From a virus, in IMG/VR virus record IMGVR_UViG_3300042691_023949, positions 1-22,778 of that record: 22,778 bases of DNA. One strand, given 5' to 3'. Below, piece after piece: positions 3,910-22,646 of this stretch. The notes under the pieces were generated by a model. It did not search any database, was not told the origin of the DNA, and saw nothing but the letters and a program-made list of their open reading frames with translations. The position numbers and the translations under genes are program-made. Positions within the stretch are counted from its first letter, which is position 1, and each line of letters opens with the position of its first letter.

Positions 3910-5925
3910 ATGGCTGAAGAAAATAAATCAATACAAACCCCTCAATATTATCCTACAGTAAACCCAGGATATAAAATGTCTGTTGGAGCCAATGGGCAAG
4001 GCACTGTTTTTGATACTAATGGAAATATATTCCATTTTACTTCACCAGATGAAGCTTTACAAAGTGCTCTACAAGAAGCTAATTATCAAGGTAATGTTGA
4101 ATTAACTGCTGATAATAGAACAATGATAGCAGCTGGTAAAGACTTATTATCAACTCCTTTCTTTAAACTAAATGTTTTAGGCTCAATTAATTATGAAACT
4201 AGTGATGAAGAATTAGAAAGTAATAATTTTATAAATATTCCTCCTACCCCTGACCCTGAAGTGACTTATCAAAAAACAGGTGATGTTTGGGAGTTTAAGT
4301 TTCTTGAACAAAACCGAGGTATATCAGGATTTAATTTAACAGGTCAGTCAGCGACAGGACAAGATGCTATACATCAATTATCAAATATAGCTGCTAATGT
4401 TGTTGGACAAGATTTAAAACAACTATATAATAGTAGTAAGTTTTATAAAGTTGATATGACTGGTATTAAAATGGATTATGGAAAAGATACTAATAATAAA
4501 ACATATTACATCATAACTATACCTTTAATATCTGTAAAAGATGATAAGTCCGCTTATGTTAATTTTGAACATAAAGGCTCTTGGAGTACTAATAAAAGAG
4601 ATAATAAAACAGCTAGACAAAACGCCTTAACTAATATATATGGTGATACTCCTTTTGATAAATCATTAACTAATAGTGGACCTTTAGATACATGGAATTT
4701 TCCAGTCACAGATGTTAATTCAACTGGTACTAATAAAGGATGGCCATTTTTTAATACTATAAAGCAAAATTTTCCAACATATGAGTTTGTAGAAACAACA
4801 ACAGGACTTGATAATAACATATATGAAATTTGGTTTCAATGGTTTGATCCATCAACAATTGGGAAATTAAGTATTCCTCCACCATCTACTCCAACACCCA
4901 CATCAGAAGAAACAGATGAACTTGATGTAGAAGGACAAATATTTGAATCACTTCCATTTAATGAAAATGAAGATCCTATTAGAAAAAATCTTGGTAAAAC
5001 ATATGAGATTGAAGAACCACCATTAACACAACAAGAAGTTGAAGATATAACATTCAACATCAGAGAAATTCAAGCTAAAGTTAATAATGGTTCTTATTCA
5101 ACTATTAGTAAGGCTGTATTAGGTGAGGCTGGAAAAACTCCTGATGGTAAATTATATCTAGAATGGATTGCTTACCAGATGAAACATGAAGGTGCTGGTG
5201 GTGTTTCTGATCCAAATGATAGTGGAGGATTAACAACATGGGGAGTAACAATAGGACATTGGAAAAAATATGCTCCTATAGTTTATCCAGGAAAATATCA
5301 AGGAACAGCAGAAGAATTAAAATCATTAAATACAGAAAAAGCTAGAGATGAGGTGATGATTCCTTATATTAAGGTAACTGATTGGGATTCATTAGGTAAT
5401 AATACATCTACTGCTCCTGATTTATATAAGGTGATGGTTTATAAGTGGAAATTTGGAGGAACTCCAAAATCATCATGGGTTGGAAAATCAGCCGCTGATA
5501 ATTTTTATAAAGATACAGGTGGAGATCCAGTTACAGCTTTTTGGGAATTTTGGGCTTGGAGAAGAAGATGTAGGAATGTAAAATTAAATAAATTAAATTA
5601 TTTATCTTTTGGTATAGGATGGCACCGAGCTATAGGTGTTTGTTGGTTAGTAAAAGATCCTAGAAAAAAAATTAATGGGGTAGCTAATCCTAATTTTGGT
5701 AAACCATTACCAAAACCAACATGTTTTAAAATTGTTGGTACATCAAGAAGTAATAGTTCTCTTTATAATTGGGCTTTAAGTAAAGGATTTTTTCAACCAT
5801 TTCATGAATATGAACTTAATGACTCTGATAAAAAGAATTTTATAAGTAATAATACAGAATTTGTTGATTTCTCAGCAGGTAATGTTAGTGTGAATGGTAT
5901 ATCTTATAACTTTAGAACAGATTAA
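3910..5925 (+). CDS. Large baseplate/spike protein with a GH108-like lysozyme domain
   Basis: A 671-aa protein. Residues 1-370 are beta-rich and unrecognised, followed by a Pro/Thr/Glu-rich linker (about 320-370). From about residue 415 there is a muralytic signature: M-K-H-E427-G-A-G-G-V-S-D-P-N-D-S-G-G-L-T-T-W-G-V-T. This resembles the catalytic region of glycoside hydrolase family 108 muramidases (E-GG-x-n-DP-DPGG-T-x-GIT), with E427 as candidate general acid. The 'EGAGG' spacing carries two extra residues relative to the usual EGG. The region after it is Trp- and basic-rich (F-W-A-W-R-R-R-C-R) and lacks a recognisable peptidoglycan-binding repeat. In T4, gp5 carries a lysozyme inside the spike that perforates peptidoglycan during injection. 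The position between an OB-like protein and a needle-like protein suggests the same job. Confidence 0.6.
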   Translation: MAEENKSIQTPQYYPTVNPGYKMSVGANGQGTVFDTNGNIFHFTSPDEALQSALQEANYQGNVELTADNRTMIAAGKDLLSTPFFKLNVLGSINYETSDEELESNNFINIPPTPDPEVTYQKTGDVWEFKFLEQNRGISGFNLTGQSATGQDAIHQLSNIAANVVGQDLKQLYNSSKFYKVDMTGIKMDYGKDTNNKTYYIITIPLISVKDDKSAYVNFEHKGSWSTNKRDNKTARQNALTNIYGDTPFDKSLTNSGPLDTWNFPVTDVNSTGTNKGWPFFNTIKQNFPTYEFVETTTGLDNNIYEIWFQWFDPSTIGKLSIPPPSTPTPTSEETDELDVEGQIFESLPFNENEDPIRKNLGKTYEIEEPPLTQQEVEDITFNIREIQAKVNNGSYSTISKAVLGEAGKTPDGKLYLEWIAYQMKHEGAGGVSDPNDSGGLTTWGVTIGHWKKYAPIVYPGKYQGTAEELKSLNTEKARDEVMIPYIKVTDWDSLGNNTSTAPDLYKVMVYKWKFGGTPKSSWVGKSAADNFYKDTGGDPVTAFWEFWAWRRRCRNVKLNKLNYLSFGIGWHRAIGVCWLVKDPRKKINGVANPNFGKPLPKPTCFKIVGTSRSNSSLYNWALSKGFFQPFHEYELNDSDKKNFISNNTEFVDFSAGNVSVNGISYNFRTD

Positions 5926-6368: not shown

Positions 6369-7453
6369 TGAGTATTACTTCATCAAACATATCATCACAA
6401 GAATCAATTAATCAAGCAAAAGCTAAAGCTGAGTCACTTAAAACAGGTGCTCAAGCTAAAACTGATCAGTTAAAAAAACAAGCTGAAGAGAAGAAAGCTG
6501 CTCTAGAACAAAATAAAAAACAACTAGAAGATGCTAAAGATAAAGCTAATGAAGCTAAAGAAAAATTTAGTGAAGCTGGAAAAAATACTAAAGGTTTTTT
6601 AAAAGGTATACAAGGAAAAGATATTAAGAATATAATTCAACCTTTATTACTTCCTATATTATTACAATTTATTAGAACACTTTCTATAGCTAATTTAATT
6701 ATTAAAAAAATAGAAAGACAAACTAGAGAACAATTAAAAAATAAAGGAAAATTAAATGTTGATGGAGGTATATTTACATTCATTCCTTCCAATCCAGGTA
6801 ACTATGAAGTTTATAAGAAAAATTTTGAAAGTAGAGTTAATAATGTTAGGCGTGCTATTGAAAAATTAAAAAGTCTTTTAAACACACTAAATAATGTTAT
6901 TAAAATACTTAATATTGCTTTATCAGTTATTAACATCTATATCAGAGTTAAACAAAAAATATTAAAAATTAAATTAGCTAAAATATCAGCTGAATTAGCT
7001 TTACCAACACCTTCTAAACCAACTGTAGGGATTGATTTAGTTGATATTGTTGATAAATTACAAAAATTAGAAGACAGTAAAAAGAAAGTAAGTGATATTC
7101 AACTATATATACTTTCCGCTCAACAATTCTTAAAAATATTTAATAACTCATTAAATAAACTAACAAATAAATTAAATCGTCTTAAATTTATTATTGATAC
7201 TAATAATAATGGCATGAACCAAAATAATGAGTTAAATAGTGCTATAGACAATGCTTCAAAAACATCACCTAATGAAGACTACATCAGTTCATCAGGTCGT
7301 TCTTATATATTAGAATTAGTAATTTTACCTAATAAATTTAGACAATATCAAGCATTAGATTCATTTAGTAAAATGAAAGTGACACAAACAGCACCTAGTA
7401 TTATTAAAACTGAGGATCAATTACTTGATGAAATTAAGTCAATACTTGGATAA
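6368..7453 (+). CDS. Coiled-coil structural protein, tail/baseplate
   Basis: A 361-aa protein. Residues about 14-80 are a long, Ala/Lys/Glu-rich heptad-like coiled coil (repeats of KAxAESLKTGAQAK, KKQAEEKKAALEQNKK and DAKDKANEAKEKF). A hydrophobic stretch, L-L-L-P-I-L-L-Q-F-I, sits near residue 95. The remainder is largely helical with several leucine/isoleucine-rich segments (LNTLNNVIKILNIALSVINI), so it could be an extended tail or baseplate component. It is not the size of a tape measure. It is very AT-rich, using AAA/AAT/TTA codons heavily, as are its neighbours. Its start overlaps the needle gene stop by 1 nt, which suggests translational coupling with the spike proteins. No family is recognised. 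Confidence 0.65.
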   Translation: MSITSSNISSQESINQAKAKAESLKTGAQAKTDQLKKQAEEKKAALEQNKKQLEDAKDKANEAKEKFSEAGKNTKGFLKGIQGKDIKNIIQPLLLPILLQFIRTLSIANLIIKKIERQTREQLKNKGKLNVDGGIFTFIPSNPGNYEVYKKNFESRVNNVRRAIEKLKSLLNTLNNVIKILNIALSVINIYIRVKQKILKIKLAKISAELALPTPSKPTVGIDLVDIVDKLQKLEDSKKKVSDIQLYILSAQQFLKIFNNSLNKLTNKLNRLKFIIDTNNNGMNQNNELNSAIDNASKTSPNEDYISSSGRSYILELVILPNKFRQYQALDSFSKMKVTQTAPSIIKTEDQLLDEIKSILG

Positions 7454-7458
7454 CGAAA

Positions 7459-7467
7459 ATATTTATA
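7459..7467 (+). promoter_or_regulatory. ATATTTATA motif, 3 nt before a start codon
   Basis: The sequence GAAAATATTTATAGACATG places the motif end only 3 nt before the ATG at 7471. That is too close for a typical -10 box with a leader (start site normally 5-8 nt downstream), so this copy argues for either a leaderless transcript or a different function. Confidence 0.4.
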
Positions 7468-7470
7468 GAC

Positions 7471-7923
7471 ATGAAAGCCGATACATTTGTAAAATTATTA
7501 CGCAAGGTTATACGCGAAGAAGTACAAGCTGTTGTAAGGGAAGAGCTTGGAATATTGCTTGAGGCACCAGACCCTAAGCCAGTGGTGGCAGAGGCCAAAC
7601 AAACCACTGTAAAAAATTCCATGGTTGAATCTATAAAACCTGCCAAACCTACACAGCCCACTAAACCAACCGCGTTTACTAGTAATAATGTTTTAAACGA
7701 GATTTTAAACCAAACTGCACAAGCCGGTGAGTGGCGCTCAATTGCTGACATGAACTCAAATCATGTTACTGGTTTTGGAGGTACTGAACCAACTGTAGTT
7801 AATAGTGTTGATGCTATGTTAGCCAACACTAGACCAGCAGGAGATATCAATGCTGTTAGAATTGATACAGTCCCTGATTTCTCAGGATTAATGCAAACAA
7901 TGAAATCTAAAGGACAAATTTAA
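7471..7923 (+). CDS. Conserved-looking hypothetical virion-associated protein
   Basis: A 150-aa protein. An N-terminal amphipathic charged helix (F-V-K-L-L-R-K-V-I-R-E-E-V-Q-A-V-V-R-E-E-L) is followed by a Pro/Lys/Thr-rich linker (about 47-70, K-P-T-Q-P-T-K-P-T) and a helical/loop C-terminal half ending V-P-D-F-S-G-L-M-Q-T-M-K-S-K-G-Q-I. I recognise the N-terminal helix followed by a disordered linker as a common arrangement next to gp25 in this phage type, but no function is known to me. Its first 250 nt are richer in G+C than the preceding genes. The stop overlaps the gp25 ATG by 1 nt (TAATG). Confidence 0.6.
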   Translation: MKADTFVKLLRKVIREEVQAVVREELGILLEAPDPKPVVAEAKQTTVKNSMVESIKPAKPTQPTKPTAFTSNNVLNEILNQTAQAGEWRSIADMNSNHVTGFGGTEPTVVNSVDAMLANTRPAGDINAVRIDTVPDFSGLMQTMKSKGQI

Positions 7924-8345
7924 TGTTAAATAGACCAACATATAGAATTAATCCTATTGATACTGGCCAAAAACGAGGTATTGGAATTAGTGTTCTTTTT
8001 AATAATGATAACAATATATTTAACACTACTACAACTACTAAAGAACAAGTTAAAGCTAATTTAATTAACTATATATTAACAGATAAAGGAGAACGTTTTT
8101 TTGACCCAACATTTGGCGGGAATTTAAGAGCATCTTTATTTGAACCAGATTCAAATTTTGATAGCATATCAGCCCGTTTAGAAGCTGAAATAATAGCTTA
8201 TATACCTAACATTGTTGTTAAGAATATATTTGTTAAAAAAAGTTCTGATGAAAATATAGTTAATATAGTCTTAGAATACTCAGTAAGTAATCAAGATGAT
8301 AACTTAGTAATTAATGTATCAACAAACGATTTAAGTAAACAATAA
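7923..8345 (+). CDS. 25: Baseplate wedge protein, gp25/GPW family
   Basis: A 140-aa protein, the usual length of gp25-like wedge subunits (T4 gp25 is 132 aa). The family core E-R-F-F-D-P-T-F-G-G-N-L-R (57-69) corresponds to the conserved 'ER..rP.fG..l' motif, after N-L-I-N-Y-I-L-T-D-K-G. The downstream L-E-A-E-I-I-A-Y-I-P-N-I-V-V-K-N-I fits the alpha-beta end of the fold. gp25 joins gp6 and gp53 in the wedge and resembles the T6SS TssE protein. It is followed by gp6 through another TAATG overlap, which matches the T6SS-like gp25-gp6 gene order. Confidence 0.9.
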   Translation: MLNRPTYRINPIDTGQKRGIGISVLFNNDNNIFNTTTTTKEQVKANLINYILTDKGERFFDPTFGGNLRASLFEPDSNFDSISARLEAEIIAYIPNIVVKNIFVKKSSDENIVNIVLEYSVSNQDDNLVINVSTNDLSKQ

Positions 8346-10228
8346 TGGCGACTCAACCAGATATAAAATATTTTGATAAAGATTTTGGATCATTAAAACA
8401 AAATCTTATTAATTATGCTAAAACATACTTCCAAAACAGTTATATGGACTTTAGTCCTTCTGCTCCTGGAAACATGTTTATTGAAATGGCATCATATGTA
8501 GGTGATGTTTTATCATTCTACACCGATACTCAGTTACAAGAGGCATTATTATTATATGCTCAAGAGCGTAAAAATATAATTGCTTTAGCTTATGCTTTAG
8601 GTTATAGACCTAAAATAACAACAACTTCATCAGTTTTATTAGACATATATCAAGTTGTTCCATCAGATGTATCTAATACTTTTAGACCTGATTATAGGTA
8701 CGCTTTAAGAGTTGATAAAAACGCTTCTATTAAATCTATATCTAGACCTGATATTACTTTTATAACCCAAGATAATGTTGATTTTAAATTTTCATCTTCA
8801 TTTGATCCAACATTTGTGACTGTATATCAAAAATATACAACTGGACCTTATATTGGTGATCCATCATATTATTTACTTAGAAAACAAGTAGAAGCTATTT
8901 CAGGACAAATTAGAACAACAACCTTCACTTTTGGTAACCCTGAGCAATTTCCAACTGTCACTATAACTGATTCAAACATTATTCAAATACTAAGTGTAAC
9001 TGATAGTGATGACAATCAATGGTATGAAGTACCATACTTAGCCCAAGACGCTATATTTGATGAATCATTAAACATCCCATCTAATGAGCCTAATTACTAT
9101 CAAGAAGAAGACAGCGCACGTTTCTTATTACGTCTTAAAAAAGTTGATAGACGTTTTGTCACTCGCTTTGATGATGACAATAACTTAATATTAGAATTTG
9201 GTAGCGGAGTAACATCATCACCAGATGAGGTTATTATTCCAAATCCAGACAATGTTGGTATAGGATTAGTAGATGGGGTTAGTAAGATGTTTATGGCTTA
9301 TGATCCATCAAACTTCATGTACACTAATGAATATGGTGTTGCTCCTTCAAATACTACTTTAACTGTTACTTATTTAGCTGGTGGTGGTATTGAAACTAAT
9401 TTACCATCAGATGATATTGGATTAAATGATGTTGTTAATACATTTATTGATTCATATAATTTAAATTCTAATATTATTTCAACAGTTCAAGGATCAGTTA
9501 GATTTAATAATCCACAACCATCTTCAGGTGGTGGACCAGGTGAAACAACAGAACAAATTCGTTTACAAGCTTTAGCTAACTTTCCTACTCAAAATAGAAA
9601 TGTAACTAAAGCTGACTATTTAGTTAGAACACTTTCAATGCCCGCTAAATTTGGTTATATAAGTAAAGCTTATGTGACACAAGATTATTTAGTAGCTAAT
9701 GATACAGATAGACAAAATTTTATAAATAATAATCCATTAGCTCTTTCAATTTATGTTCTAACAACTGACATAAATAATAAATTAACTAGAACAACTAATG
9801 TTATTAAACAAAATTTAAAAACATACTTATCATATAATAAAATGATGAGTGATGCTGTTTTAATTAAAGACGCTTATTACGCCAATATTAAAGTAAATTT
9901 TGATATTTCTGTTCTACCAGCTTATAACTCACAAGAAGTATTAACTAAATGTATTACTGAACTTCAAAATTATTTTGATACATCTAAATGGCAAATTAAT
10001 CAACCAATTATATACTCAGACATTTATAATTTGATTGGTACTGTTAAAGGTGTTCAATCAGTATTAAAAGTAACTATTGATAACTTAGCTGGAGGGAATT
10101 ATTCTCCTTATGGTTATGATATTATTTCAGCCACAAAACAAGGTATTATATATCCATCAATTGATCCAATGATATTTGAAGTAAGATATCCTGACACTGA
10201 TATTTATGGTAAAGTAGTAACTTATTAA
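8345..10228 (+). CDS. 6: Baseplate wedge protein, gp6/gpJ-like
   Basis: A 627-aa protein, near T4 gp6 (660 aa). The N-terminal signature F-S-P-S-A-P-G-N-M-F-I-E-M-A-S-Y-V-G-D-V and the following helix A-L-A-Y-A-L-G-Y-R-P-K (residues about 37-90) are typical of gp6/baseplate J proteins ('D.s.g.p...lie..A.v.d.l..y.d..l.Ea.l..A......i..lA..lGy.pk'). A loop with S-S-G-G-G-P-G-E-T-T-E-Q (about residues 392-404) precedes the 'Rnv.T.~DY' region (N-R-N-V-T-K-A-D-Y-L). gp6 is the core wedge component controlling sheath initiation. It is directly downstream of gp25 (1-nt overlap). Confidence 0.85.
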   Translation: MATQPDIKYFDKDFGSLKQNLINYAKTYFQNSYMDFSPSAPGNMFIEMASYVGDVLSFYTDTQLQEALLLYAQERKNIIALAYALGYRPKITTTSSVLLDIYQVVPSDVSNTFRPDYRYALRVDKNASIKSISRPDITFITQDNVDFKFSSSFDPTFVTVYQKYTTGPYIGDPSYYLLRKQVEAISGQIRTTTFTFGNPEQFPTVTITDSNIIQILSVTDSDDNQWYEVPYLAQDAIFDESLNIPSNEPNYYQEEDSARFLLRLKKVDRRFVTRFDDDNNLILEFGSGVTSSPDEVIIPNPDNVGIGLVDGVSKMFMAYDPSNFMYTNEYGVAPSNTTLTVTYLAGGGIETNLPSDDIGLNDVVNTFIDSYNLNSNIISTVQGSVRFNNPQPSSGGGPGETTEQIRLQALANFPTQNRNVTKADYLVRTLSMPAKFGYISKAYVTQDYLVANDTDRQNFINNNPLALSIYVLTTDINNKLTRTTNVIKQNLKTYLSYNKMMSDAVLIKDAYYANIKVNFDISVLPAYNSQEVLTKCITELQNYFDTSKWQINQPIIYSDIYNLIGTVKGVQSVLKVTIDNLAGGNYSPYGYDIISATKQGIIYPSIDPMIFEVRYPDTDIYGKVVTY

Positions 10229-10240
10229 AAATAAAAAAGT

Positions 10241-10840
10241 ATGAATTTAGACAAATTAAAAGGTCATATCCCTGACAAAGTGATTAGCCAAATTCCAGGA
10301 GTAATGGAAAAATTCCAAATCAATACTCCATTACGCTTAGCCCACTTTTTAGCTCAATGTGGTCATGAATCAGGTGGATTCCGTTTAACTAAAGAAAATT
10401 TAAACTATAGTGCTAAAGGTTTAGCGAATACATTTAAAAAATACTTCCCAACTGAAGCTGCCGCTGCATCATATGCTAGACAACCTGAAAAAATTGCCAA
10501 CAAAGTATATGGTAATAGAATGGGTAATGGTCCTGAAGCATCAGGTGACGGCGCTAAATTCTGTGGTCGTGGATATATCCAATTAACTGGTAAAGATAAC
10601 TACACAGCATTTGGTAAGTCCATTAATGAAGACTTAACAAAAGATCCATCATCAGTAGCCGACAAATATGCTTTATTATCAGCTGCTTGGTTCTTCTCTA
10701 AAAATGGTTTACATAAGATGGCTGACGAAGGTGCTACTGACGCAGTTGTAACTAAAATTACAAAACGTGTTAATGGTGGTACTATTGGATTAGCAGATCG
10801 TATTAAACACTTTAAAGAATACCATCACTTACTAGCTTAA
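10241..10840 (+). CDS. GH19 chitinase-like lytic enzyme (endolysin)
   Basis: A 199-aa protein covering a complete glycoside hydrolase family 19 domain. A-H-F-L-A-Q-C-G-H-E43-S-G-G-F-R holds the candidate catalytic acid in the HESGG context, and E52 in K-E-N-L-N-Y is the possible second acid. The family signature F-C-G-R-G-Y-I-Q-L-T-G-K-D-N-Y (107-121) and the late N-G-G-T-I-G-L-A-D-R segment are all present. GH19 enzymes in phages cleave peptidoglycan glycan strands and often act as endolysins. There is no signal peptide. Leader TAAAAATAAAAAAGT lacks SD and has no ATATTTATA motif, so it is probably read from upstream. It is placed unusually between baseplate genes, 12 nt after gp6. Confidence 0.9.
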   Translation: MNLDKLKGHIPDKVISQIPGVMEKFQINTPLRLAHFLAQCGHESGGFRLTKENLNYSAKGLANTFKKYFPTEAAAASYARQPEKIANKVYGNRMGNGPEASGDGAKFCGRGYIQLTGKDNYTAFGKSINEDLTKDPSSVADKYALLSAAWFFSKNGLHKMADEGATDAVVTKITKRVNGGTIGLADRIKHFKEYHHLLA

Positions 10841-18097: not shown

Positions 18098-19189
18098 ATG
18101 TCATTTGGAGCATATAACCCTGAAGATCAGGTCCTCAGTTCAGACGTTCTTGTCGCCCCAATGTGGAGCGGAAATGAAACTCAACTAAAAACTTTTTTTA
18201 GTTGGTCATTACAAGAAACAACAGTGCCACAAGGTAGATTTTATCTTAATGTATTTAAAGATAATATTAACAACCCAGCTAGCCAGAGTGCCGAATCTCA
18301 ATTCTCAATTGCTTATGGTCACGTAAGTGGATCAGGATCATCTTATTTCAATCCATTAGTACCAGATAAAACTCCAACAAGAGATATCTATGGTCAATAT
18401 AGATCATTGATTTATGGAGATGAAAACTCTGCTTTCTATTTTGGTGGTACACAATATGTTTCAAAAGATATTATTGTACTTTCTGTTAATAGAGCAAGAT
18501 TCAAAGAATCATTTAATCCTGGTTCTTTCTTCTTACGTATTACAAGTGGTAGTACACCAGTATCAATTGGTTTAGTAGATGATTCTACTGTATCAACCAC
18601 TTCAACTTATATTGGTACATCTCGTGTTTATCAATTATTAAGTGGTTCTTATAATCCAAATACTCAAACAACTGTACCTTCATCTTCTAACTACACAGTT
18701 AGTGGATCTTATGGTTTAATGATTCCTGATGAAGGATTAATTATTTTAAATCCACGTGCTTTAGCTTTATCAGCTGGTGCTTTGGGTGGTGTAGGAGCTG
18801 TATTTAATGAGTTTAGTTCATCTCAAGCAGCTACTTATTTCAATACTACAACAACACATAATATTAATAATAGAATGATATTCCAGATGATTTCTTCATC
18901 TGCTGTTTCTCAGTCATTATTTAATTTCCAAAACTCAGAAACAATTTCATCACGTTATTTCTTCACACGTGTTAAAAACTCTGAATTCAATTATACTTCA
19001 AACCCAACTGTAATTGATAATAATGGTAATTTATTATACACCCAATTAATTTATAATCCACAAACATTTATTACAACTGTTGGATTGTATAATAATACAG
19101 GTGATTTATTAGCTGTTGCTAAATTAAATAAACCATTAGTAAAAGATTTCACTAAAGAATTATTAGTAAGAGTTAAATTAGACTTCTAA
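18098..19189 (+). CDS. Conserved tail protein with C-terminal 'EFN...TTVGLYN' module
   Basis: A 363-aa protein beginning MSFGAYNPEDQVLSSDVLVA. Ser/Gly/Thr-rich beta structure runs through most of it, with D-K-T-P-T-R-D-I-Y-G-Q-Y-R-S-L-I-Y-G-D near 90-110. The C-terminal module has V-K-N-S-E-F-N-Y-T-S-N-P-T (292-304), T-T-V-G-L-Y-N (326-332), then L-L-A-V-A-K-L-N-K-P. I recall such a module ('EFNyS.NPT...tTvGLYn....LLAvaKLs.P') in tail proteins of T4-like phages. A diverged copy lies near the N-terminus of the protein at 21218. No cysteines. The first 100 nt of the gene are richer in G+C than the rest. Likely a tail/fibre-base component; it ends 10 nt before the first of three stalk-repeat proteins. 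Confidence 0.65.
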   Translation: MSFGAYNPEDQVLSSDVLVAPMWSGNETQLKTFFSWSLQETTVPQGRFYLNVFKDNINNPASQSAESQFSIAYGHVSGSGSSYFNPLVPDKTPTRDIYGQYRSLIYGDENSAFYFGGTQYVSKDIIVLSVNRARFKESFNPGSFFLRITSGSTPVSIGLVDDSTVSTTSTYIGTSRVYQLLSGSYNPNTQTTVPSSSNYTVSGSYGLMIPDEGLIILNPRALALSAGALGGVGAVFNEFSSSQAATYFNTTTTHNINNRMIFQMISSSAVSQSLFNFQNSETISSRYFFTRVKNSEFNYTSNPTVIDNNGNLLYTQLIYNPQTFITTVGLYNNTGDLLAVAKLNKPLVKDFTKELLVRVKLDF

Positions 19190-19199
19190 TGTTACGCCC

Positions 19200-20489
19200 A
19201 TGTCAGCAAACATCTACAAAAGACTTAATGTATCTGATACTTTCGTAGTACCTTATACAGCGAATAAAAGCTGGGATATATCATCATCTTCGTTTGCTGA
19301 GAGTAGAATTGTAGTTAATATTGGTGTAAATAAAAGTGGATCTATATTCGATCCAAATGTTGAATATGTTACTAATGGACAATATGAGCGTTTAGTATAT
19401 AATTCAATCAATTTATCTTACTACCCAAATTTTCTACCAACATCATCTCAATTATATCTAAGTGAAAGAATAAACTCATACTATAATGATGGTACTTTAA
19501 CTACTCAATCATATTATAATGGATTTGTAAATCCAGGTAACTTAGATACTGTAAAATTCTTCCCAACAAACTCTAATGATGTTATTTATGTTTTAAACAT
19601 ACCTAAAACATTAACTAGTGATAAAATATTACCAACAACATTTGAGGTATTTTTTAGTAGTGGATCAACATATACCGCTAAAATATATGATGACGGAAAC
19701 TATAATTTATTTTATAGTGGTAGTCCTGTAGCATCATCACTTGGTACAACATTAACTAATGGTGCTTATATTGGTAATATATTTTATGAGCAAAATGTAG
19801 CTATTTTAACTATTATACCTAATACTATAAGATTAACTGGATGGAGAGGAGCTAATCCATATTGTATTCAAACTTCTCCTTCACCAACTCCAACAGTAAC
19901 TCCTTCTATTAGTGTGACACCAAGTGTTACTCCTTCAATTAGTGTGACTCCTAGTGTAACTTCATCTCCAGGAGCTAGTGTAAGTGTTACCCCATCAGTT
20001 AGTATAACGCCTAGTATAACAATAACACCTAGTGTGACCCCTACAGCAACAATATCTTCAACACCTAGTCCTACTATTAGTGTGACACCTAGTATGACAC
20101 CAACTATAACACCATCTCCATCAACTCAAGTAATTAGACTTGATTGGGCTACAGGCCCAGGTAATGGAGGAGCAGGTATATTACAAGTACAAAATGCTAA
20201 TGGAACTCAAGTATTAAATGAAACAACAATAGCAACTTCTAAGAGTGGTACACTTTATTTCACCCCATCTGAAGTTCCATTCTCAATAACTGGTTCTTGG
20301 GGTGCTGGATCAGGAAATATTGTTCGTTACAGAGTATGTAATATAACAAATCTAAGTGAATTATATTATAGCGGAGATATAGATAATATGGTGGTTAGTT
20401 TATCTTACCTTGTTGATCCAACACCATTACATACATCAGTTGAATTAACATCAGGAACAGGTGCTACTCCACTAGCATGTCCAATATAA
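19200..20489 (+). CDS. Stalk-repeat fibre-like protein 1
   Basis: A 429-aa protein in three parts. Residues 1-224 are a beta-rich N-terminal module rich in Tyr/Asn/Ser. Residues 225-309 are a low-complexity stalk with a period near six (S-V-T-P-S-I and variants), preceded by a Cys (Y-C-I-Q-T-S-P). The 120-aa C-terminal head starts V-I-R-L-D-W-A-T-G-P-G-N-G-G. The start ATG has context GTTACGCCCATG. Head sequence resembles a beta sandwich but no family is recognised. The design of anchor, Pro/Thr/Ser stalk and variable head fits an adhesin or fibre tip; direct evidence of location is lacking. The two next genes share only the stalk. Confidence 0.6.
   Translation: MSANIYKRLNVSDTFVVPYTANKSWDISSSSFAESRIVVNIGVNKSGSIFDPNVEYVTNGQYERLVYNSINLSYYPNFLPTSSQLYLSERINSYYNDGTLTTQSYYNGFVNPGNLDTVKFFPTNSNDVIYVLNIPKTLTSDKILPTTFEVFFSSGSTYTAKIYDDGNYNLFYSGSPVASSLGTTLTNGAYIGNIFYEQNVAILTIIPNTIRLTGWRGANPYCIQTSPSPTPTVTPSISVTPSVTPSISVTPSVTSSPGASVSVTPSVSITPSITITPSVTPTATISSTPSPTISVTPSMTPTITPSPSTQVIRLDWATGPGNGGAGILQVQNANGTQVLNETTIATSKSGTLYFTPSEVPFSITGSWGAGSGNIVRYRVCNITNLSELYYSGDIDNMVVSLSYLVDPTPLHTSVELTSGTGATPLACPI
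19872..20126 (+). repeat. Ser/Thr/Pro/Val/Ile stalk repeat 1 (period about 18 bp)
   Basis: About 85 codons encoding variants of S-V-T-P-S-I, i.e. an 18-nt unit with imperfect copies such as AGTGTGACACCTAGT and CCTTCAATTAGTGTGACT. Codons are mixed AGT/TCA for Ser and CCT/CCA for Pro, so the unit is kept at protein level with only short exact nucleotide identities. Confidence 0.9.
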
Positions 20490-20491
20490 AA

Positions 20492-20500
20492 ATATTTATA
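20492..20500 (+). promoter_or_regulatory. ATATTTATA motif, 4 nt before a start codon
   Basis: In the 15-nt gap between stalk proteins 1 and 2, context AAAAATATTTATAAAAAATG. The motif ends only 4 nt before the ATG at 20505, as at 7471, which leaves no room for a normal leader. Confidence 0.4.
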
Positions 20501-20504
20501 AAAA

Positions 20505-21215
20505 ATGAGTAACACAGGATTTAAAGCATATACAGACCTTGAACAATACTATTTAGATAATGGTGTTGCTACTGGTGTTACTAAACCTAACACCATAGGG
20601 GATCCTGATTATATTGCTCCTGTTTTAGATTTAGTATTTTGTCCTTTACCATCAGCTAGTCCTAGTGTGACTCCAAGTATTAGTGTAACACCAAGTATTA
20701 GTGTAACACCAAGTATAACTCCAACAGTTACTCCTTCAGTTACACCATCAATCACAGTGTCCTTAAGTGTGACACCAAGTATTAGTGTAACACCAAGTGT
20801 TCCTTCTAGTATTAGTGTTACACCTTCAATTAGTATCACACCTAGTACAACTGTAAGTGTATCTGTAACACCTAGTATAACGCCAAGCTCCACTCCTGGA
20901 TTTGCTCCTAATGTGATAGCAGCTCAAGGTTATACAGATCCTTGTGGAGGTGGCTGTAATGAATATCTAGGTTGGTATATCACATTAGACCAACCAGTGG
21001 TTAACAACACATACTACACTTTAAATATTGAATTATATTTCTTTGGAACATATCAATACACTTATACAGCTTATGGTATGATTCCCGCTGGTTCAAATAA
21101 TGATAATGTTAATCCATGTACTGGTGGTACTTATATAGGATGTGGATATAATGTAAACAATACTTGTGTAGCTACAATTGATGCACCTGTTGATAGATCA
21201 GCTTATGCTTGTTAA
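20505..21215 (+). CDS. Stalk-repeat fibre-like protein 2
   Basis: A 236-aa protein. A short N-terminal segment (1-48, with T-D-L-E-Q-Y-Y-L-D-N-G and G-D-P-D-Y-I-A-P-V) is followed by a Cys (V-F-C-P-L) and then a stalk of six-residue repeats (49-131). The C-terminal head of about 105 aa has seven cysteines (D-P-C-G-G-G-C-N-E-Y; N-P-C-T-G-G-T; G-C-G-Y; N-T-C-V) and ends in A-Y-A-C. Many cysteines in an otherwise Cys-poor virion region suggest disulphides and exposure outside the cell. The N-terminal 'DPDYIAPV...CP' resembles short segments I remember in Bacteroidota surface proteins, a weak hint to the host. No fold assignment. Confidence 0.6.
   Translation: MSNTGFKAYTDLEQYYLDNGVATGVTKPNTIGDPDYIAPVLDLVFCPLPSASPSVTPSISVTPSISVTPSITPTVTPSVTPSITVSLSVTPSISVTPSVPSSISVTPSISITPSTTVSVSVTPSITPSSTPGFAPNVIAAQGYTDPCGGGCNEYLGWYITLDQPVVNNTYYTLNIELYFFGTYQYTYTAYGMIPAGSNNDNVNPCTGGTYIGCGYNVNNTCVATIDAPVDRSAYAC
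20649..20897 (+). repeat. Ser/Thr/Pro/Val/Ile stalk repeat 2 (period 18 bp)
   Basis: About 83 codons of SVTPSI-like units. Lines of exact tandem identity are visible, e.g. CCAAGTATTAGTGTAACA repeated head to tail near 20682-20717. This copy is more uniform at DNA level than stalk 1. The antisense strand gives a shadow ORF of V-T-L-I-L-G repeats, which is not a gene. Confidence 0.9.
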
Positions 21216-21217
21216 TT

Positions 21218-22198
21218 ATGAATAGTAGAACATTAAATACAAACATTACCAATATAAGGTTCAAAAACAATCATATTGTTTATGAGAACTTTATCAAATG
21301 TACTATAAAGGATTATGAGTTTAATTTAAGTTATAATCCAACTCTACTATCTGGTTCTCAAGCTGTATTAGTACCATATAGTAGCTCAATTAATAGTAAT
21401 GTATTTTATAATGTAACTAGTTCTAGATATTTTGGTATACTAAAAGATTTTACAACTGGATCTATCTCAGGTTCAGAATTTTCACCGTATGTTACAACTA
21501 TTGGTTTATACAACGATGCTCAAGAGTTATTAGCTATAGCTAAAATGTCAATACCAACACCAATATCACCTAATAGTGATATGACATTTTTAATTAAGTA
21601 TGATACTCAATGGGTACCAAAACCTTATTTTACACCATCATCTACTCCATCTGTAACTCCAACAATAACACCATCAGTTAGTGTTACTCCAAGTATCACT
21701 CCAAGTGTCACACCTTCCATTAGTATTACACCTAGTACTCCACCATCAGTTAGTGTGACACCTAGTATTACTTTGTCTCCTAGTGTAAGTGTTAGCACAA
21801 CGCCAAGTGTGAGTGTGACACCATCAATTAGTATAACACCAAGTGTTACACCAAGTATTTCAATCACACCTAGTATAAGTCCATCACCTTCTGCTCCATC
21901 TGGACAATTATTTGTTTATGGAAAGTATATTAATTCAAGTGATGAATTAGGTTACACATTAAATAGTGGTCCTTACTTAGGTATTGGATATCCAACATCA
22001 ACTTGTCAATATATGGCTGTTATTAATGGAGTTAGTAACGGTGATCAATTTGTTTTCTCAACATTGTTAAGTAGAGCAATATCAGGTGACACATCAGATT
22101 GTCCTGTTGGTGCTGGTAGTTGTACTTATAGCTACACATTCACTGGAACAGGAGCTAATTACGTCTATATAACAATGGACGGAAACGATGCTTGTTAA
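21218..22198 (+). CDS. Stalk-repeat fibre-like protein 3 with N-terminal tail module
   Basis: A 326-aa protein. I place the start at ATG 21218 rather than the in-frame TTG at 21209: the ATG follows the previous stop by 2 nt (TAATT-ATG) exactly as at 5928, while the TTG overlaps the upstream gene. Residues 30-42 read I-K-D-Y-E-F-N-L-S-Y-N-P-T and 93-99 T-T-I-G-L-Y-N, then L-L-A-I-A-K-M, matching the C-terminal module of the protein at 18098-19189. The stalk spans 139-227. The head of about 100 aa has four cysteines and ends D-G-N-D-A-C. The N-terminal module probably attaches the fibre to the same tail site, and the stalk projects the head. Function inferred. Confidence 0.6.
   Translation: MNSRTLNTNITNIRFKNNHIVYENFIKCTIKDYEFNLSYNPTLLSGSQAVLVPYSSSINSNVFYNVTSSRYFGILKDFTTGSISGSEFSPYVTTIGLYNDAQELLAIAKMSIPTPISPNSDMTFLIKYDTQWVPKPYFTPSSTPSVTPTITPSVSVTPSITPSVTPSISITPSTPPSVSVTPSITLSPSVSVSTTPSVSVTPSISITPSVTPSISITPSISPSPSAPSGQLFVYGKYINSSDELGYTLNSGPYLGIGYPTSTCQYMAVINGVSNGDQFVFSTLLSRAISGDTSDCPVGAGSCTYSYTFTGTGANYVYITMDGNDAC
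21632..21898 (+). repeat. Ser/Thr/Pro/Val/Ile stalk repeat 3 (period about 18 bp)
   Basis: About 89 codons of imperfect S-V-T-P-S-I units, with variants such as S-T-P-P-S and S-V-S-V-S-T-T. It shares short exact stretches with stalks 1 and 2 (e.g. AGTGTTACTCC, ATTAGTATAACACC), providing local homology between three neighbouring genes. Confidence 0.9.
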
Positions 22199-22220: not shown

Positions 22221-22646
22221 ATGAAATGGAAACATTGGGATATAATTAATCCTGAGAAATATTATGGTTTTGTTTATAAAATTACCAACAACATAACTGG
22301 TAAGTTTTATATTGGTAAAAAAGTGTTTTGGAATAATAAGAAACACAAACTCACTAAAAAACAACTTGCTGAACAAACAGGCCCTGGTCGTAAACCAACT
22401 CATGAAGTAATTAGAGTTGAGAGCGATTGGAAGACATATTGGGGTTCTAATAAACAACTTCTTGAAGACATTAAACAACATGGAGAAGAAAATTTTAGTT
22501 GTTGGATTTACATTCAATGTCTAACTAAAAAACAACTCACATACTACGAAATGCACCATCAGTGTAAAGAGGAAGTGTTAATAGGTAGAGACAGATCTTA
22601 CAACGACAATATACTAGGTAAGTTTTTCACTAAAGATTTGGCCTAA
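22221..22646 (+). CDS. GIY-YIG endonuclease
   Basis: A 141-aa protein. G-F-V-Y-K-I-T-N (16-23) and K-F-Y-I-G-K-K (28-34) make up the GIY-YIG first-strand pair. The catalytic Glu is likely E110 in L-T-Y-Y-E-M and the conserved Asn N130 in S-Y-N-D-N-I-L-G. E-S-D-W-K-T-Y-W-G-S-N (67-77) is a signature I recall from small phage GIY-YIG nucleases. The family cuts DNA through a single-metal mechanism and includes homing endonucleases and DNA-degrading enzymes. There is no extra DNA-binding domain, so target specificity is unknown. It sits between the fibre genes and the primase, carries its own ATATTTATA motif, and could be a free-standing homing nuclease or a resident repair/host-DNA nuclease. Confidence 0.85.
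   Translation: MKWKHWDIINPEKYYGFVYKITNNITGKFYIGKKVFWNNKKHKLTKKQLAEQTGPGRKPTHEVIRVESDWKTYWGSNKQLLEDIKQHGEENFSCWIYIQCLTKKQLTYYEMHHQCKEEVLIGRDRSYNDNILGKFFTKDLA

Follow-up and report, generated by a model that had tools for sequence, protein, structure and literature searches.

The three consecutive stalk genes at the end of a viral DNA stretch of 22,778 nucleotides (the entire IMG/VR record IMGVR_UViG_3300042691_023949, here called the window, and probably a genome fragment itself) probably form a modular adhesin cassette, in which the halves of a split scaffold protein carry exchangeable stalked heads taken from a shared pool. The genes lie on the + strand at 19200–20489 (429 aa), 20505–21215 (236 aa) and 21218–22198 (326 aa), and each product joins an N-terminal anchor (N1, N2 or N3) to a C-terminal head through a central Ser/Thr/Pro/Val/Ile stalk. 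Comparison with about 20 related contigs (denoted by L-numbers) establishes, at the level of sequence, the split of the scaffold, the conservation of its anchors, the replacement of heads and the movement of heads between anchors and lineages.

A scaffold protein divided between two stalk genes

The original prediction had described three consecutive genes with S-V-T-P-S-I-type stalks, mutually different N-terminal parts and different C-terminal heads. Most of this stood: each stalk contains 10–12 SVTP/SITP-type tetrads, and the heads (117, 98 and 98 aa) lack mutual resemblance. Stalk length is 93–96 residues with the edges used here, the 83–89 residues given earlier reflecting stricter edges, and gene 3 more likely starts at the ATG at 21218 (326 aa) than at the TTG at 21209 (329 aa). 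The parts N-terminal to the stalks (about 219, 43 and 132 aa) are indeed dissimilar to one another, but those of genes 1 and 3 do not differ in origin. To judge from alignments of their families, they go back to a single ancestral protein, of which each is one half.

In L020/L021, L039, L042, L050, L052, L067 and immuto_166, N1 and N3 form a single continuous, stalkless protein of 318–357 aa, and they are also contiguous in L129, L131 and L133. Moreover, the N1+N3 family aligned end to end with the contiguous family of the adjacent ORF 18098–19189 (probability 99.3, E = 8.4e-21, 273 columns; hhalign, family alignments A2 versus A4). Because of this end-to-end alignment, the contiguous scaffold is taken as ancestral and the state of the window as derived. 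A contiguous ancestor with both halves kept as separate genes is the pattern of gene fission. In phage Aeh1, nrdA is split into two retained genes, with the homing-type endonuclease gene mobE in the neighbourhood. In both cases the two parts of one ancestral gene are kept as genes of their own and a homing-type endonuclease lies nearby, whereas here the insert consists of stalk–head modules, the protein is structural and its reassembly is presumed. Flavobacterium phage vB_FspM_immuto (MW353175) resembles the window in carrying a homologue of ORF 18098–19189, then the scaffold and, further on, a GIY-YIG gene; its scaffold, however, is contiguous (immuto_166, 357 aa), with no stalk or head.

Related loci contained further rearrangements of the scaffold. 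In L061 (10316–14768), N1 is cut after residue 26; the 26-residue piece bears a stalk and head, and the remainder lies in the next gene. L016 and L019 (11058 onward) have a head-like domain of about 60–70 aa in-frame within N1 near residue 154, L013 has an insert of ~200 aa inside N3, and L132 has one of ~230 aa between the scaffold halves. In Microcystis phage Mel-JY01 (L111, 3327–12273), five tandem ORFs with ORF 18098-like domains, some with long inserts, make up an expanded scaffold family.

A broader reading, to which we give slightly less than even credence, is that in myophages of the Flavobacteriia type a conserved virion protein serves as a 'fissile' display scaffold, whose pieces reassemble and whose every cut or loop carries an exchangeable, mostly stalked head. 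Cut sites would then vary, from the N1/N3 boundary in the window's clade to the position after N1 residue 26 in L061/L062, and the in-frame interruptions in L013, L016, L019 and L132 would belong to the same process.

Replacement of heads between phages

The predicted shuffling of heads was borne out by moves of head families across anchors, gene positions and distant phages. Gene-1 anchors in the window's clade are pairwise 57–99% identical (median 65%), but homology between terminal heads is limited to 12 of 171 pairs for gene 1, 21 of 55 for gene 2 and 16 of 78 for gene 3. Even gene-1 anchors that are 95–96% identical can bear unrelated heads, as in L006/L028 (96%) and L009/L028. Along the DNA of L006 and L028, identity drops from ~95% near the start of the stalk and is restored where the next gene starts.

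Heads of one family were also found on different anchors. Family F2 is carried on N3 in the window, L008, L014, L022, L030 and L122, on N1 in L017 and on unrelated anchors in L113, L117, L120 and L121. F20 occurs on N1 in L006 and L009 and on N3 in L028; F18 occurs on N3 in L003 and on N1 in L010. Family F1 was discarded because the L007 heads were contaminated by stalk residues. Head 1 of the window has a homologue in L127 with 75% amino acid and 81% DNA identity (20132–20520), between flanks at 63–66% DNA identity and with 32% amino acid identity for N1. The L127 homologue is stalkless and sits on a different anchor, in the middle gene, and the shared tract runs from the stalk/head junction to just past the stop codon. 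Separately, an ORF of L127 at 7027–8354 resembles, by eye only, a Bacteroidota TonB-dependent (SusC-like) outer-membrane receptor.

In L023/L024, the DNA of the ORF 18098 homologue is 99.9% identical; within gene 1 the distal N1, the stalk and the head fall to 63–95%, and identity returns to 95–100% after the stop codon. By this comparison the gene-1 difference is a recent replacement; donors of the tract were not identified, the best candidates reaching 77–80%. Across the loci, visible edges of exchange lie at anchor/stalk junctions, stalk/head junctions and gene ends.

In the gene at about 3488–4291 of L113–L117, L115–L117 differ from L113 at 6–8 head residues and at 0–1 in anchor and stalk, suggesting change focused on the head. 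This concentration, and the graded identity of some same-position heads (43–73% among gene-2 heads), would suit heads that only diverge rapidly by point mutation under diversifying selection, without exchange. Such an account is very improbable given identical head families on different anchors, and as the sole process it is refuted by the DNA comparison of head 1 with L127, where 81% identity in the head stands against 63–66% in the flanks.

In the favoured scheme of an exchangeable-head cassette, the locus would close the block of baseplate genes in an uncultured, immuto-related myophage. A duplicate of ORF 18098–19189 would have been cut into two genes, giving N1 and N3, with a stalk and small head joined at the cut and a second stalk and head on the C terminus of N3; between these would lie a third anchor, N2, which bears a separate stalk and head. 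On the virion, N1 and N3 presumably fold together and hold up to three stalked heads that may bind host or environmental glycans. Between phages, heads from the pool common to related phages would replace one another, either through the ordinary homologous recombination of phages or by illegitimate joining, and the edges would fall at gene ends, stalk/head junctions and conserved anchors.

Stalk repeats, recombination enzymes and the GIY-YIG gene

The original prediction placed exchange in the stalks, whose 18-bp units were thought to provide repeated homology. We found no regular array: TRF reported three 18-bp copies (20663–20716) and two short 30-bp doublets. The longest exact stalk matches between genes are 14–19 bp, about the same as in codon-shuffled stalks (means 15–17 bp). 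If stalk repeats were nevertheless the recombination substrate, reshuffling heads and stalk lengths among the three genes within one genome, the stalks of a genome should resemble one another. At the amino acid level they do in clade A (6-mers, 0.229 within genomes versus a null of 0.157, p = 0.0005), and stalk dialects differ between close relatives (SNTP in L005, ASPAASPE in L007). The TPTP clade, by contrast, has no excess within-genome similarity, and the DNA is not homogenised: sharing of stalk 18-mers in the 88–93% identical subclade gave p = 0.16, and synonymous codons in shared hexapeptides differ about equally within (0.52) and between (0.48) genomes. Stalk homogenisation was therefore rejected as proof of stalk recombination, the signal being confined to amino acids and missing from the DNA of close relatives; shared selection on stalk chemistry or co-inheritance would explain the within-genome likeness as well as recombination does.

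A head has also moved with no stalk, as head 1 shows in its comparison with L127. The expected changes in stalk length between close strains were not seen either, as near-identical contigs (L025–L027; L113–L117) have identical stalks, with L023/L024 the sole exception. Taken together with the DNA comparisons, this leaves exchange through the stalk repeats quite unlikely. Because of the identical stalks, the overall pattern resembles replacement between phages on an evolutionary time scale, not a fast in-genome switch.

As had been noted, no recombinase or reverse transcriptase is in view: PF00078, PF00239 (resolvase) and PF00589 (tyrosine integrase) were absent from 20 related contigs, which are fragments. 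The reverse transcriptase profile PF00078 did hit 3 of 14 control genomes; no search for template repeats was made. A diversity-generating retroelement was set aside given the lack of PF00078 and variation in the form of whole-head replacement. An invertible tail-fibre switch of the Gin/Cin/Ein type was likewise set aside, since PF00239 and PF00589 are lacking, inverted repeats are only weak and imperfect, and the heads are all on the same strand. A RecA-like match occurred in 5 of the 20 contigs, including all four longer than 100 kb, although in one of these four the match fell below the Pfam cut-off; ordinary homologous recombination is therefore available.

The SegE-type GIY-YIG gene lies directly downstream of the cassette in most loci extending that far. 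The window's copy is 84% identical in amino acids and 81% in DNA to that of L037, a likeness bounded by the gene, with flanks at about 64%. Its alleles are 96% identical in L005/L006 and 96% in L007/L010, yet 40–43% identical across these pairs, whose genomes are about 88–91% identical. On these allele comparisons, which cover the window (22221–22646), L005, L006, L007, L010, L037 and L104, the gene is mobile and allele-swapping. The label 'NAD synthetase', given by its PHROG family and in the immuto record, is apparently a misannotation.

Free-standing seg endonucleases of T4 and their spread have been reviewed (PMC2988022). Position beside the cassette and swapping of the gene among close relatives and with L037 are what one would expect if this mobile enzyme drove the exchange, cutting rival phage DNA so that the repair tract replaced the adjacent cassette. 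The endonuclease gene, however, also adjoins contiguous, stalkless scaffolds, and co-movement with gene-3 heads was sought and not found: L005 and L010 share head F26 and differ in GIY-YIG type. We consider it unlikely as the general driver; it may start some exchanges, an ability that free-standing endonucleases of T4-type phages do have (PMC2988022).

Locus, head function and relation to known systems

Part of a T4-type contractile-tail block lies in the window, with ORFs resembling gp25 (at 7923) and the baseplate wedge protein gp6 (at 8345). These are followed by ORFs of 1670, 222 and 363 aa, the three stalk genes, the GIY-YIG gene and the start of a primase-like ORF, of which L003 holds a complete orthologue (Table 1). 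By domain mapping, the order across relatives is fairly fixed (ORF 18098 homologue, N1 gene, other stalk genes, N3 gene, GIY-YIG, primase), except in contigs that end early and in stalkless relatives. Two separate lysozyme-like ORFs, at 3910–5925 (671 aa, with a GH108-like stretch) and 10241–10840 (199 aa, endolysin-like), flank the baseplate genes. The motif TATTTATA occurs in 8 copies on the + strand, 7 of them in intergenic DNA, which makes up only 368 of 22,644 bases (1.6%) of the window; it is probably a promoter or gene-start signal.

Orthologues of ORF 18098–19189 were found in 28 viral contigs and in immuto, and a search with the gene-3 product led to further, more distant loci. The closest named relatives are Flavobacterium phage immuto, Microcystis phage Mel-JY01 and Rhodothermus phage RM378. 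Homologues in bacterial assemblies were all in metagenome-assembled genomes, and because four of these seven are labelled Flavobacteriaceae, Flavobacteriales or Winogradskyella, the host of the window's phage is likely to belong to the Flavobacteriia.

Table 1 Features of the cassette and its surroundings in the window
Feature	Position	Strand	Basis or remark
363-aa contiguous tail-block protein	18098..19189	+	Full-length paralogue of gene-1 anchor plus gene-3 anchor (hhalign)
Anchor N1 (gene 1, aa 1–215), first half of ancestral scaffold	19200..19844	+	57–85% identity to clade relatives
Stalk 1, Ser/Thr/Pro/Val/Ile, 93 aa	19857..20135	+	Composition, TRF
Head 1, family F8	20136..20486	+	81% DNA identity to L127 over 20132–20520
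TATTTATA intergenic signal, gene 1/gene 2 junction	20493..20500	+	Mostly intergenic placement of copies
Anchor N2 (gene 2, aa 1–46)	20505..20642	+	48–93% conserved in window's clade; fused onto N1 in L008
Stalk 2, 95 aa	20634..20918	+	Composition, TRF
Head 2, family F5	20919..21212	+	Also in L003, L008, L011, L122
Anchor N3 (gene 3, aa 1–135), second half of ancestral scaffold	21218..21622	+	65–81% identity in clade
Stalk 3, 96 aa	21614..21901	+	Composition
Head 3, family F2, predicted small beta-sandwich, tentatively CBM56-like	21902..22195	+	Profile and model
SegE-type GIY-YIG endonuclease	22221..22646	+	PF19835, E = 5.5e-25
Intergenic TATTTATA copies	627, 3021, 7460, 10858, 17396, 20493, 22201	+	Two at cassette junctions

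The products of genes 1–3 and the scaffold had no PHROG, Pfam or PDB match except phrog_15511 (function unknown). Heads 1 and 3 had no match among named phage records, and the search with head 2 returned no additional viral contigs. Giant stalk–head proteins with several serial heads occur in L096 (7835–18688, 3617 aa), L037 (1586–8638, 2350 aa) and L013 (10470–15656, 1728 aa).

Head 3 is predicted to form a seven-stranded beta-sandwich (pLDDT 78, pTM 0.73), and its profile weakly matched BglH in the PDB (a Big_2–CBM56 construct, E = 0.005). CBM56 is a beta-1,3-glucan-binding family. Glycan binding by head 3 is thus plausible on sequence and model, and, from the position of the cassette and this tentatively CBM56-like head, the heads may bind a host receptor. 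They might instead be virion decorations for mucus, algal glycans or particles, or a spacer coat. The same CBM56-like profile and the stalk–head proteins of up to 3617 aa among relatives would fit such a role, while the cassette follows baseplate genes and is not among capsid genes, and frequent head replacement is equally consistent with host recognition. We regard decoration as unlikely.

Several points count against an adhesin cassette on a split scaffold. The Pfam match to CBM56 is below the gathering cut-off (27 bits), at best 21.2 bits (E = 3.5e-4) for the L014 head, and the fold matches of the heads, CBM56 and CBM25 entries among them, are non-significant. For the contiguous L021 protein, AlphaFold gave a model of moderate confidence (pLDDT 72, pTM 0.59), and the fold search with it gave no significant PDB match. 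In the ORF 18098 protein tree, contiguous L021 is nested among split genomes, requiring at least two changes; one split and one re-fusion, in which case L021 may be the re-fusion, or several splits are both possible histories. The window is only a 22.8-kb fragment whose host assignment leans on relatives. The location of the proteins on the virion is presumed, as is reassembly of the scaffold pieces, to which their conservation points.

The earlier label 'undescribed adaptive system' was too strong, as head swapping in phage adhesins is known (PMC10684548, PMC3797505, PMC13195805) and distal-domain exchange is already well documented (these and PMC3368898). Among phage receptor-binding proteins, domains exchanged in the recent past are shared by tail proteins that otherwise lack homology, with fibres and spikes as hot spots (Nat Commun 2023, PMC10684548). 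Head 1, with its 75% amino acid identity to L127, qualifies as such a mosaic, defined there by a fragment at least 50% identical in non-homologous proteins. The two cases share domain exchange and differ in that the anchors here include halves of a split structural protein and several exchange points stand side by side. In T4 fibritin (wac), C-terminal module swaps are described as ancient and ceased (Letarov and Krisch 2013, PMC3797505); a conserved N-terminal part, an exchanged C-terminal domain and a T4-type phage are common to both, whereas exchange here includes recent cases. Neither by sequence nor by fold (PHROG, Pfam, PDB) was homology to T4 gp34–37, gp12 or wac found.

Prophage tail fibres with collagen-like (Gly-X-Y) stalks (PMC3368898) likewise have a low-complexity rod joining anchor and head and recombine in modules, but the stalks here are of Ser/Thr/Pro/Val/Ile, not Gly-X-Y, with no sign of stalk DNA recombining. 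Pectobacterium carotovoricin exchanges its tail fibres via homologous recombination, and the invertase Ein also shuffles them (PMC13195805). There, as here, flanks and N terminus are conserved and the distal part is replaced; Ein has no counterpart here, where no resolvase or tyrosine recombinase was found. The less familiar part of the system is the split scaffold, which the original prediction had missed. As far as the open-access literature was searched, a split and interrupted structural scaffold with stalk–head modules at its cuts is a new combination, for which priority is not established.

A natural head-exchange series, with 95–100% identical backbones and different heads, is now available in a group of uncultured aquatic phages. 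Within it, a structural protein tolerates division into separate genes and carries binding modules where it is cut. Provided that the halves do reassemble, phage structural genes can acquire attachment sites through gene splitting, and the many uncharacterised metagenomic proteins with Ser/Thr/Pro stalks could be interpreted as exchangeable modules for binding, in which anchor, stalk and head can each be defined. Should the scaffold prove fissile in the broader sense, gene fission would be a recurrent route to new binding heads.

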